Of a stretch of DNA of 64,000 nt, positions 25,420 through 29,308 are shown in pieces. Position 1 is the stretch's first letter. Every line of letters starts with the position of its first letter. A model generated the notes under the pieces. That model saw only the letters and a list, made by a program, of their open reading frames with translations. It searched no databases and had not been told where the DNA came from. This DNA is from Frigoriglobus tundricola (lineage in GTDB: Bacteria > Planctomycetota > Planctomycetia > Gemmatales > Gemmataceae), in the NCBI RefSeq assembly GCF_013128195.2, contig NZ_CP053452.2, forward strand, positions 5,394,001-5,458,000. Reading direction: 5' to 3'. The position numbers and the translations under genes were made by a program.

Positions 25420-27425
25420 CCGCACCTCAGAACGAACCCGGCCCGCGGTGGCCGCTCCCGTGGCGGTCGGCGGCGGCCGGCTGGGCGGTGGCGGCCGCCG
25501 TGCTCGTTGCCGGCGTCCCGCTGTTCCTCTGCATGCCGCCGTGGACCGACGTGACCCTGTACGACATGGCCGCGCGGGCGGTCCTGCGCGGCGGCGTGTA
25601 CTACCGCGACGTCTTCGACACGAACCTGCCGGGCATGGGCTGGTCGATGGCCGCGGTGCGGTACGGCTTCGGCCCGAGCTACGAAGCGCTGCGTGCGGCC
25701 GATCTGGTCGTGATCGGCGCGACGGTGGCCGCGCTGTGCGGGTGGGTGCGGCGCTGCGGCGGCACGGGCTACGCCGTGGCGTGGTTCGTGGCGGCGGCGG
25801 CGCTGTTCTACCCGTTCCTGTCCGAGTTCAACCACGTCCAGCGCGACCCGTGGCTCCTGCTGCCCGCGATCGTCGCCGCGCGCCTGCGGCTCAGACGGGT
25901 CGCAAGACTGATCCCGCCGGCCCCCGGAGAACCCGCCCCCAACCCCTCCCTGAAGGGAGGGGAGCAAGACCTTCGGAGTTCCGACGCTTCGAGAAGGGCG
26001 GAGGAGGCTATGCGCGCGTTCCCCCCCCTCCCTTCCTCCCGCCCGCGAGAAGCTCCGCTGACAGGGCCGGGGAGGGAACCGAGCATGGCCGGGGGAGTGG
26101 GTTCGTCGATCCTCGAAGGGTTCGTGTGGGGGTTGGCGGTGTGGCTGAAGCCGCACGTCGTGGTGCCGGCGCTCGCGGTGTGGGCGGTGTCCGCGGTGCT
26201 GCTCGCGCGGCGCGAACCGCGGAAGCGGATCGTTGCCGACCTCGGCGGCCTGATCCTCGGCGGGCTCCTGGCCGGCGCGCCCGGGGTGCTGTGGCTCGTC
26301 GGGACCGGGGCGTGGCCGTACTTCCTGGACATCTTCCTCAACTGGAACCCCGACTACCTCTCGGAATCCGGCTCGGTTCAGATGCGGTTCAACACCGTGT
26401 TCAACTGTTTCCGGCCGTGGAGCCTCGTGCAGTTCCTCGCGCTCCCGACCGCGGCCCTTTCGCTCTGGGAAGCCCGCGTCTGGTCGCGCCGCCCGTGCGG
26501 CCCGAGGGCCGTACCCGGTTCCGGGTGGTTCTACCAGCCGGCTGGAGACGCGTGCGCGGTCCCCGCCCGCGCGCTCCTGGCCGCGTGCTACCTCGGGTGG
26601 CTCGCCCAGGTGGTGCTGATCCAGAAGGCATTCGATTACGTTCACGTCCCGCTCGTGTTCCTGGGCATGACGGTTGTCGCGGGGCAGCGGTGGTGCTTCG
26701 GCTTTGCGTACCTGCTGTGGTTCGGGGCGGTCGGCGTGCTGATGAACGCCGCCGACGTGTCGCCACCGCTCCGGCACGCGGTGGAAGCGATCTCCCCGCC
26801 AGAGAGCCGGCTCCGGCCGTACGTGCATCTGGAAAAGCACCCGCTCGCGGACGGGGAGGTCATGACGCTGTGGCCGCGGTGCTGGACCGAGGGCGGTTCG
26901 GCGGAAATGCGCGACCGGCTCGGGCAGTACACCGACGTTCACTGCGGCACGCGGTGGCGGGAACTCGAAAAGGTGGCCGCGTATTTGCGCACGGTCGATC
27001 CGCCGCTCGGGCCGGGCGAACTGAACTGCTGGCACGACGGCACGCACCCGTTGTACCTGATGCTCGACCTCGACCCCGCGACGCGGTACATGCACTTCGG
27101 CACCGCGTTCGGCATCCGGTCCAAGCGCGCGTCGGTCGCGGCCGAGGTGGCCGCGAGCCGGCAGCGGTACGTGGTGAGTGACCTCTTGCGGACGAACTGG
27201 GACCGGACCGCGGCCTACGCCCCGGCCGCGTGGCGCGCCGGCGACCCGTTACCGGTGTGGCTCCCGCCCAACGAGCGCGAGAAGTTCCCGTGGAACCAGC
27301 CGGTCGTGTTCCGCTCCGGCCGGTACCTGGTCCACAGGCTCGATCCGACGAAACCGCTCGGGGTGATCCGCGTGCCGGACTGGGACCGGCTCGACAAGCT
27401 CGCCGAGTTCGGGCCGGACGAGTGA
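25416..27425 (+). CDS. GT-C/GT39-like multi-spanning membrane protein, paralogue 1
   Basis: A polytopic membrane protein with the GT-C glycosyltransferase signature near its first outer loop (GVYYRDVFDTNLPGMGW), as in GT39/ArnT-like enzymes using lipid-linked sugars. About 47% identical by eye to the next gene. Homology with that gene begins at PWRSAA-GW, upstream of the first ATG/GTG/TTG in frame (GTG 25488); the only plausible earlier start is CTG at 25416, overlapping the preceding TGA as CTGA, hence this start. Residues about 167-228 are a repeat-derived Pro/Gly-rich insert absent from normal family members (see findings). The C-terminal 200 residues are soluble. Acceptor and donor are unknown. 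Confidence 0.75.
   Translation: MTAPQNEPGPRWPLPWRSAAAGWAVAAAVLVAGVPLFLCMPPWTDVTLYDMAARAVLRGGVYYRDVFDTNLPGMGWSMAAVRYGFGPSYEALRAADLVVIGATVAALCGWVRRCGGTGYAVAWFVAAAALFYPFLSEFNHVQRDPWLLLPAIVAARLRLRRVARLIPPAPGEPAPNPSLKGGEQDLRSSDASRRAEEAMRAFPPLPSSRPREAPLTGPGREPSMAGGVGSSILEGFVWGLAVWLKPHVVVPALAVWAVSAVLLARREPRKRIVADLGGLILGGLLAGAPGVLWLVGTGAWPYFLDIFLNWNPDYLSESGSVQMRFNTVFNCFRPWSLVQFLALPTAALSLWEARVWSRRPCGPRAVPGSGWFYQPAGDACAVPARALLAACYLGWLAQVVLIQKAFDYVHVPLVFLGMTVVAGQRWCFGFAYLLWFGAVGVLMNAADVSPPLRHAVEAISPPESRLRPYVHLEKHPLADGEVMTLWPRCWTEGGSAEMRDRLGQYTDVHCGTRWRELEKVAAYLRTVDPPLGPGELNCWHDGTHPLYLMLDLDPATRYMHFGTAFGIRSKRASVAAEVAASRQRYVVSDLLRTNWDRTAAYAPAAWRAGDPLPVWLPPNEREKFPWNQPVVFRSGRYLVHRLDPTKPLGVIRVPDWDRLDKLAEFGPDE
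25915..26100. repeat. genomic repeat modules inside the coding sequence of GT-C paralogue 1
   Basis: This in-frame segment contains module A (25936-25985, beginning CCCCCAACCCCTCCCTGAAG and containing a short hairpin) and module B (26041-26074, GCCCGCGAGAAGCTCCGCTG and onward). Both recur inside the neighbouring paralogue, module B there in reverse orientation. The translated insert (PNPSLKGGEQDLRSSDAS ...) is of low complexity and lies between two membrane segments. Confidence 0.75.
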
Positions 27426-27451
27426 CGCCGCGGCGCGTGCTACACTTCGCT

Positions 27452-29308
27452 ATGTCCAAAGTTGCTCGTACTCGTTGGGCGCCCTGGCGGTCGGCCGCGT
27501 GCGGCTGGCTGGTTGCGGGCGCGTTTCTGGCCGCGGGCGCCCCGCTGTTTCTGCGCATGCCGCTCTGGTGCGACCCCACGCTCTACGCGGTCGCCGCGCG
27601 GGCCGTCGCGTCCGGCGGCGTCCACTACCGCGACGTGTTCGACACCAACCCGCCCGGTTTCGTGTGGCTCCTGTGCGGCGTGCGGGGGGTTCTGGGGACG
27701 AGCAGCGAAGCGCTCCGCCTCACGGACCTGCTTCTCGTGGGCCTCGTAACGGCCGGGCTGCTGTGGTGGGCGCGGAAGGCGGGCGCGGACCGCGCCGCCG
27801 TCGCGTGGGCCGCGGCGGCGGGGGCCGCGTTCTACCCGTTCACGCACGAGTTCAACCACGTCCAGCGCGACGTGTGGATGATGCTCCCCGCGGGAGCCGC
27901 CCTCGTGCTGCGGTTGCGGCGCGCGGAAGACCCCACCCCCCCGGCCCCCCTCCGTTCGCTCCCCGGCCCTGTCAGCGGAGCTTCTCGCGGGCCGGGGCAA
28001 GGGAAGGGGGAAGAAGACAAAGACCCCACCCCCAACCCCTCCCTGAAGGGAGGGGAGCAAAACCTTCAGAGTTTCGACACCTCTGCGGGGGCAGAGGAGG
28101 CGCCTCGCGCCGTCACACTCTCCCTGAAGGAAGGGGGTCGGGGGGTGGGCCTCTCCCCCTTCCTTGAGGGGCTTTTGTGGGGCGCGGGGTGCTGGATCAA
28201 ACCGCACCTGTTGTTCATCGCGTTGGCCGCGTGGCTCGTGACGCAGCGCCGGTTGCGGTGGCGAGATCACCTCGCGGTATTCGCGGGCGGCGCGGTCGCG
28301 GGCGGCGCGGGGGCCGGCTGGCTCGTCGCGACGGGGGCGTGGCCGTACTTCCTGGACGTCTGGCGCACGTGGAACGCGGACTACCTCGCCACCGTGTACC
28401 GCGAGCTCCCGTTTCGCGTGCTGATCCAACTGGAGTACTTTCCGCCGTATAGTGCGTGCGCGCTCCTGGCCGTGCCGCTCGCGGTGGCAAACGTCCGCGC
28501 CCGCTCCGACGCCCCCGGGCCGTTCCGGCGGAGGGTTCTGGCGGCGGTGTACCTCGCGTGGCTGGTCGTGACGTTACTCCTTCAGCGGCCGTTTCATTAC
28601 CTCCACGTCCCCGAGACGCTGCTGATGATCGCGGTCTTCGCCGCGAACCGCTGGCCGGTGCCGTTCGCGCTGGTGCTGCTCCCGACGACCGCGGGCCTGG
28701 TCCTCGCGCTCAGCGGGCGGAGCGTTTCGCACGTCCCGCCGCACCCGGTGTTCGATGCGGCCCGCACGCAGTGGTGGGTGCGGTGCCTCGACCGCGACCC
28801 GCCGCGCGAGGTCCGGCGCGGGGTGGCGATGTGGGCACAGCACTTCGGCGGGACCGACCCGGTGGAACTCGGCGCGGTGGCCGACTATCTCCGCGGGCAG
28901 AACGTTCGGGACGGCGAACTCATCGCCTGGCACGATTCGCCGCACGGGCTGTACCTGGACCTGGGCGTGGAACCCGGGTTCCGGTTCATGCACGTCGGCA
29001 CCGCGGCCGGGCTCGGGAAATGGCAGGAGCGGACGGTCCTCCGCGAACTCCGAACCGCGGTCCCCCGCGCGCGGTTCGCGGTCTCCGACATGCACCGCGT
29101 CACCGCGCGGTACGCCGACCTGAACGACCCGAGCGCCGATGGCCTGCCGAACGTGTTGCCCGGGTGGCAGCGGGACGAGTTCCCGTTCGATCAGCCGGTG
29201 GTGTTTCGGTCGCCGAGCGGGCGGTACCTCGTTCACCGCATCCTGAAACCGGTAACGAGCGCCCGCATCCCCGATCGGCTGGACCAGGCGGAGCCGAACA
29301 AGGAATGA
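27452..29308 (+). CDS. GT-C/GT39-like multi-spanning membrane protein, paralogue 2
   Basis: A 618-residue paralogue of the preceding gene, start MSKVARTRWAPWRSAACGWL at 27452, 26 bases after its stop. Shared blocks: the first span, PLFLRMPLWCDPTLYAVAAR, the GT-C-type loop GGVHYRDVFDTNPPGFVWLL, FYPFTHEFNHVQRD, GCWIKPHLLF, WPYFLDVWRTWNADYL and the C-terminal soluble part ending VFRSPSGRYLVHR. About 8-9 spans. Residues about 160-237 are a second, larger repeat-derived insert at the same place as in paralogue 1. Role: probably transfer of sugar from a polyprenyl donor; substrate unknown. Confidence 0.82.
   Translation: MSKVARTRWAPWRSAACGWLVAGAFLAAGAPLFLRMPLWCDPTLYAVAARAVASGGVHYRDVFDTNPPGFVWLLCGVRGVLGTSSEALRLTDLLLVGLVTAGLLWWARKAGADRAAVAWAAAAGAAFYPFTHEFNHVQRDVWMMLPAGAALVLRLRRAEDPTPPAPLRSLPGPVSGASRGPGQGKGEEDKDPTPNPSLKGGEQNLQSFDTSAGAEEAPRAVTLSLKEGGRGVGLSPFLEGLLWGAGCWIKPHLLFIALAAWLVTQRRLRWRDHLAVFAGGAVAGGAGAGWLVATGAWPYFLDVWRTWNADYLATVYRELPFRVLIQLEYFPPYSACALLAVPLAVANVRARSDAPGPFRRRVLAAVYLAWLVVTLLLQRPFHYLHVPETLLMIAVFAANRWPVPFALVLLPTTAGLVLALSGRSVSHVPPHPVFDAARTQWWVRCLDRDPPREVRRGVAMWAQHFGGTDPVELGAVADYLRGQNVRDGELIAWHDSPHGLYLDLGVEPGFRFMHVGTAAGLGKWQERTVLRELRTAVPRARFAVSDMHRVTARYADLNDPSADGLPNVLPGWQRDEFPFDQPVVFRSPSGRYLVHRILKPVTSARIPDRLDQAEPNKE
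27930..28165. repeat. genomic repeat modules inside the coding sequence of GT-C paralogue 2
   Basis: In-frame insert of about 235 bases carrying module B (27961-27992, reversed relative to paralogue 1) and module A (28029-28078, same orientation), plus a second CTCCCTGAAGGAAGG-type hairpin near 28120. Translated it gives PAPLRSLPGPVSGASRGPGQ and a Glu/Ser/Gly-rich stretch that breaks an otherwise conserved membrane-protein alignment. Confidence 0.75.

Follow-up and report, generated by a model that had tools for sequence, protein, structure and literature searches.

Two tandem genes, which we call P1 and P2, each carry a Pro/Gly/Ser-rich insert made up largely of a dispersed palindromic element that also lies, in frame and free of stops, inside unrelated genes of the same genome, at sites that in related genomes are either empty or filled with other versions. 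Both genes fall within the window, i.e., the whole 64,000-nucleotide stretch of DNA that was analysed, and the reading frame stays open across both inserts. The original prediction had described two repeat modules common to the inserts, and within-window BLASTN agrees with it on their arrangement: the region of module A keeps the same orientation in both genes (25928-26008 against 28021-28101, 84% over 81 nt, E 4e-20 to 5e-20), and that of module B is reversed (26023-26107 against 28010-27926, 86% over 85 nt, E 8e-24). The inserts themselves are likewise real, but their predicted limits (residues 167-228 and 160-237) differ from the ~147-205 in P1 and ~158-233 in P2 that we count from GTG 25488 and ATG 27452, presumably because other start codons had been used. 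The coordinates of all features are collected in Table 1.

Table 1. Host genes, palindromic elements and modules in the window.
Feature	Coordinates	Strand	Description
Host gene P1	25488..27425	+	ORF from GTG 25488, 645 aa, TM-like segments by hydropathy
Palindromic element in P1	25928..26104	+	nhmmer copy C1:5419928-5420104; frame +0; module B in right hairpin
Module A (P1 copy)	25936..25985	+	Left terminal hairpin and start of spacer
Module B (P1 copy)	26039..26073	+	22-base core 26047-26068; end coordinate by eye
Host gene P2	27452..29308	+	From ATG 27452, 618 aa, P1 paralogue by homology
Single terminal-hairpin unit, module B in tip	27929..28010	+	Upstream part of P2 insert; limits by eye
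Module B (P2 copy)	27960..27993	-	Core 27965-27986; reversed with its hairpin; end coordinate by eye
Palindromic element in P2	28020..28149	+	nhmmer copy C1:5422020-5422149; frame +0; without module B

The P1 frame has a coding score of 0.35 by the codon-usage gene caller, and its best matches across 18 genomes of the same genus are 52-73% identical, except for one short match. Further P1 homologues are found in its own genome at G000:C1:7413391-7415082 and G000:C1:5206765-5208507. The GT-C label that the two proteins had been given is unconfirmed: Pfam searched up to E 10 yielded no family for P1 and one noise match only for P2, and a PDB sequence search up to E 10 with a profile of P1 and six homologues yielded no match. 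An AlphaFold model of P1 built on a 7-row alignment was dropped as structural evidence because its mean pLDDT was only 44.8. At the RNA level, an Rfam search of 25800-28300 returned a single match, which scored under the gathering threshold and did not overlap the inserts, and the inserts had no match up to E 1. An inverted-repeat search of both inserts found no pair in P1 at the settings used and two pairs in P2. An in-frame ATG at 26010-26012, inside the P1 insert, may be an internal start.

Thirty aligned copies represent one palindromic element of ~138 bp, with two inverted terminal hairpins of ~45 bp each around a spacer of ~50 bp. Its outer inverted repeat reads GAAGAACCCACCCCC...GGGTGGGTTCTTC, the hairpin CCCCTCCCT/AGGGAGGGG adjoins each element end, and the outer arms pair in the consensus as terminal inverted repeats. 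The consensus DNA folds into one long hairpin (-52.9 kcal/mol, z -7.1 versus shuffles), and by eye half-palindromes, e.g., CCCCCCCGGCCCCC, flank several of the elements. As predicted, the modules are genomic repeats, dispersed well beyond the two genes. Searching the P1 insert against its own genome (9.86 Mb, two contigs) gave 58 scored matches, with 40 of 211 first-look candidates scored; the hairpin pattern at up to 2 mismatches gave 258+252 matches in that genome versus 7+8 for the control, counts in which a palindrome registers on both strands; and a profile search of 1.6 Mb gave 49 non-overlapping copies in 43 clusters. The 1.6 Mb, or 16% of the genome, comprises three stretches picked by position (the surroundings of the window and two others), and by extrapolation the whole genome would hold ~300 copies. 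Of 19 genomes of the genus, 14 contain element ends, the interiors between them having mostly diverged. The copies have diverged, the best being 94% identical to the consensus, and accordingly nothing in the own genome points to recent movement.

Nor did a mobilising partner emerge. A RAYT was tried as a candidate and rejected: none of the seven Y1_Tnp loci has copies on both sides within 1.5 kb, and the one Y1_Tnp gene with an element copy within that distance, on one side only, is about what chance would give (estimate 0.6). Neither an autonomous element with the same ends nor a long inverted-end pair enclosing a gene was found in 1.6 of the 9.86 Mb. No target duplication was seen by eye among the copies inspected, and no empty site was close enough at the DNA level for comparison. 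Judged by its sequence, the element is most likely lineage-specific, non-autonomous, and REPIN/MITE-like.

Module B is a smaller unit that nests in hairpins. Thirteen copies were found at E < 0.01 in the 1.6 Mb, nine inside the 138-bp family and four, the P2 copy among them, in other hairpins. By eye, all 13 occupy hairpin tips and agree in the side on which their C-rich arm lies; three more copies, beyond the 13, also sit in hairpin tips. Module B is reversed between P1 and P2 because its orientation follows the hairpin that holds it. An identical 22-base core is shared by 9 of the 13 copies; with at most one mismatch, this core occurs 40 times in the own genome, 13 times in G007, 12 in G008, 13 in G010, and 6 in G013, and in none of the 14 other genomes of the genus. 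Among the 119 genomes searched in all, one match fell outside the genus, and the control gave 0 throughout; the exact core was absent from viral contigs. The extra-genus match, locus L211 of genome G073, is module-B-like and lies in a GGCCC/GGGCC hairpin without the usual C-rich/G-rich outer arms. Among P1 orthologues, G008 and G013 carry the same version of the insert, with module B present in one and absent from the other, a difference of exactly 42 nt.

Using a codon-usage gene caller trained on 705 long ORFs, we placed 16 of the 43 clusters of the 1.6 Mb within genes, in frame and open (14 of 41 when the discovery copies P1 and P2 are set aside). The remainder comprise one cluster in the same frame with a stop, four with same-strand coding flanks in other frames, 14 with one coding flank, and eight with none. 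By the same criterion, random points fall within genes in 51.7% of cases, so that the depletion of genic copies is only mild and falls short of that expected from a pure frame filter; a simple filter by which one third survive does not predict it. When 20 clusters from loci picked by similarity to the P1 insert are added, 20 of the resulting 63 are in frame and open, and these are 20 of 28 genic clusters (P 4e-5 versus 1/3). Another seven of the 63 have same-strand coding flanks in different frames, some of which may be gene boundaries, and one has a stop. The claim that such insertions never break the frame thus holds for P1 and P2, but as a general statement it describes only the survivors. 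The core length is divisible by three in 12 of 18 in-gene copies versus 11 of 32 others (P 0.04), a weak signal obtained with a model-based length measure that replaced an ad hoc anchor measure, which had given a stronger split.

The genes that hold these copies are diverse. Not counting P1 and P2, a known family was matched by 12 of 13 scanned host ORFs, namely QueG, an SMC hinge protein, a glycosyltransferase, RsmB, GT87, TreY, TIGR03936, an SbcC-like ATPase, TrmL/SpoU, KdtA, Aas, and GlpK, and one ORF had no match; the scan took in all but one of the remaining host ORFs in the 1.6 Mb and none outside that sample. For the SMC hinge, GT87, AAA_23, FGGY_C, and TreY models, one profile match spans the insert. 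At L148:7727-10321:-, a nucleotidase domain of the NT5C type (residues 672-839) follows the GlpK frame with no intervening stop, which looks like either a fusion or a frame accident.

The 18 single, full-length in-gene copies out of the 20 in-frame clusters are read in only two of the six frames: +0 (13 copies), giving the peptide EEPTPNPSLKGGEQDLRSSDASGGSEEASRAFTPLPSGRG..., and -2 (5 copies), giving a RTHPPAPLPEGRGVNAREASSDPPEASELRRSCSPPFREGLGVGS-like peptide. Of 30 other copies, some of them perhaps close to the end of a gene, 19 are likewise free of stops in frame +2 and 12 in frame -0. With the per-frame openness of those 30 taken into account, finding 18 of 18 in frames +0 and -2 has P ~1e-6, assuming independent copies. 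The mean net charge is -1.1 and +1.0 in the used frames versus +4.3 to +6.2 in the four unread frames (charge and openness were computed on 17 of the 18 in-gene and 30 of the 32 other copies, the rest having no anchor). Because the frames that are read are near-neutral and those that are not read are basic, selection against basic inserts seems indicated; alternatively, the frame bias may arise if the preferred target sets the codon phase.

Insert-free homologues of P1 do exist. In twelve orthologues (G002, G003, G004, G009, G011, G012, G014-G018, and G025), the aligned parts are separated at the loop by 5-30 residues, with no element signature, and the P2 homologues of G003 and G011 have no element there either. 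Other palindromes occupy the P1 loop in G008, G013, and G001; that of G010 holds palindromes, an N run, and stops; the contig of the G007 P1 orthologue starts within such an element; and the G007 P2 orthologue has an apparent decayed element. A further P1 homologue, G010:C11:84719-86613, also has an element end at 85212-85268. No conserved domain occupies this site in the relatives, which show a short loop or a different repeat version instead; as the modules also occur elsewhere, neither of the two outcomes that would have refuted the prediction came about. The original prediction had proposed that shared repeat parts were either rearranged or inserted independently. Since the G003 and G011 homologues of P2 and the 12 orthologues of P1 are without an element at the loop, P1 and P2 most likely acquired their inserts independently; random shuffling does not describe the modules, module B being nested in hairpin tips and oriented with them. 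In the clade of G008, G010, and G013, descent seems to account for the P1 insert, which means that some occupied sites are not new insertions.

The same pattern was found at other host genes. Ten of them were searched in six relatives (G008, G013, G002, G004, G011, and G010), and 40 orthologous stretches, picked with the match coordinates in view, were fetched for nine genes. At least 60 nt extra over the bare host sequence is present at the insert site in 24 of the 40 (QueG 5/6, RsmB 5/6, TIGR03936 3/5, TrmL 0/3, KdtA 3/6, Aas 4/4, GlpK 1/6, GT87 3/3, SbcC 0/1). The element model built on own-genome copies recognises 21 of the 24 filled stretches and 0 of the 16 others, missing those of QueG and TIGR03936 in G002 and of RsmB in G011. 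Judged by eye, the interiors vary with the species, e.g., TPFPKKEGG...SPSPLGGGVGEG versus NPSLKGGEQDLRSSD in the own genome. The sole two inserts out of frame, those of KdtA and GlpK in G010, include N runs, and the QueG insert of G010 has stops and an N run. Among sites that were not fetched, SbcC (5), TreY (4), TrmL (3), and Aas of G004 are apparently empty, and Aas, GT87, and TIGR03936 of G010 are apparently filled, some with stops. As a control, the flanks showed 2 insertions of at least 10 residues in 80 alignments (7953 residues in all), one of them lying in repeat-derived sequence beside the KdtA insert. Altogether, the same site carries extra sequence in at least one relative for 7 of the 10 genes (for GlpK in G010 only), and P1 is an eighth same-site case. 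The QueG loops of G002 (L170) and G011 (L171) contain apparent further repeat peptides, of the PHSEFRTPHF and NHKSQI types, respectively; L170 is unmatched by the element model.

By analogy, the closest known kinds are the Rickettsia palindromic elements (RPEs) and the intragenic GTAG/CGTC REPs, and our element would work like them. A REPIN or BIME consists of two inverted hairpin units around a spacer. The element described here also has two inverted hairpins and a spacer; it differs from REPIN/RAYT systems in that no Y1_Tnp gene is flanked by copies on both sides within 1.5 kb and in its large genic share. RPEs are palindromes of ~150 bp lying in frame in unrelated genes, as is the case here, where homologues without the insert also exist. 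For R. conorii, a review (PMC10969869) gives 44 RPEs in ten families, nearly half of them within ORFs. In contrast to RPEs, which have a CGTC tag at a fixed end, the element has no such tag: CGTC occurs on either strand in 23 of 50 copies and before the right hairpin in 7 of 50. Kinship with RPEs is judged here by this tag and by Rfam. The host also differs, being a free-living planctomycete with ~300 copies by extrapolation, as do the restriction to two near-neutral frames and the repeated occupation of the same site by different versions.

The intragenic GTAG/CGTC REPs (Di Nocera et al. 2013, PMC3733652) are likewise short stem-loops inside ORFs. In two Xanthomonas species, according to that paper, recB holds different REPs at roughly one position, and the authors suggest that REPs are tolerated in flexible linkers or loops; same-site recurrence is thus not without precedent (PMC3733652). 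Compared with these REPs, the present element lacks such a tag (GTAG is found on either strand in 13 of 50 copies, at no fixed place), is longer and composite, and shows same-site recurrence in 7 of 10 genes. Peptide-encoding MITEs such as the Coxiella QMITE (PMC5896051) and the enterobacterial RU (PMC2759123) resemble it in their inverted repeats, the lack of a gene of their own, and occasional in-frame fusions; here, no autonomous partner (1.6 Mb) or target duplication (by eye) was found. Because the element has neither a CGTC or GTAG tag at a fixed place nor a RAYT association within 1.5 kb, we assign it neither to the RPEs nor to the intragenic REPs. A search of the literature on Gemmata and repeats, covering titles and the beginnings of abstracts with most subscription journals outside its coverage, returned no such elements.

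We consider it probable that a spread of palindromes, filtered within genes by frame, stops, charge, and loop tolerance, has repeatedly refilled the loops that tolerate them. A non-autonomous palindrome would spread to ~300 places in the genome, and a genic copy would survive if its net length is a multiple of three and its frame is stop-free, provided that the peptide is nearly neutral, hydrophilic, and Pro/Gly/Ser-rich and that the site is a loop tolerating extra residues. Few loops would meet these conditions, and we propose that the same loops are for this reason reoccupied in different species by whichever element version is active there. Module B, occupying hairpin tips, would add further in-frame residues. 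The sequences themselves show the family, its nesting, the restriction to certain frames, the empty sites, and the recurrence at the same sites. We infer that the element has been mobile, that the inserts are translated, and that the peptide charge is under selection; the surface-loop position of the sites is likewise suggested by alignments. A bolder version, in which self-nesting hairpins target tips and certain loops of core enzymes serve as pads re-entered across the Gemmataceae in the charge-neutral frame only, strikes us as rather unlikely.

The main rival is an ancestral insertion that was passed on by descent, with later versions replacing or overgrowing the old palindrome through tip insertion or gene conversion. 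It is less probable than repeated insertion but a serious possibility, and the two may act together. Nested units are common, as seen in module B in its tips and in the flanking half-palindromes, related P1 inserts are common to G008, G010, and G013, and the filled sites match one model, i.e., have common element ends, all of which would suit replacement. Against it, occupancy is incongruent between genes, the GlpK loop being filled in G010 only (with an N run) and empty in G008, G013, G002, G004, and G011. On a 22-row P1/P2 tree, moreover, the filled/empty label needs at least five changes, three of them forced by well-supported branches, although 99 of 500 label shuffles required equally few and the G007 P1 orthologue, found filled later, was left out. 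Domestication, in which selection retains the inserted peptides for their usefulness as linkers or interaction segments, would account for the frame and charge restriction and for the codon positions, where positions 1, 2, and 3 of in-gene copies change at 0.124, 0.133, and 0.187. A partly similar trend in the non-genic copies (0.137, 0.174, and 0.186), hosts that are unrelated, and the many orthologues without an insert make it improbable.

That the insert goes untranslated, with ribosomes bypassing the hairpin or re-initiation splitting the gene, would fit the strong hairpins and the ATG at 26010. Bypass, however, needs neither a stop-free nor a charge-restricted frame, both of which are seen, and we think this very improbable. 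Pseudogenes, or chance low-complexity G+C-rich sequence, deserve least credence and are close to negligible in our estimate: high G+C does make long open frames common, but coding bias and the conservation of orthologues both extend to either side of the insert, and the repeats exceed the controls by far.

In the parts of the literature covered here, in-frame palindromic inserts have so far come from Rickettsia and from scattered REP cases. To these the present analysis adds a large-genome bacterium in which about one third of the sampled copies are genic and in which the orthologous sites of relatives are empty or differently filled. The original prediction that a repeat keeping its frame open may be a source of new protein segments is upheld as far as nucleotide and predicted peptide comparisons reach. 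Were the self-nesting reading true, one structural position in a protein would be a long-lived, renewable source of in-frame peptide. The system lends itself to testing directly how far a proteome's tolerance extends with respect to loop, frame, and peptide charge, and whether repeats feed new protein segments.
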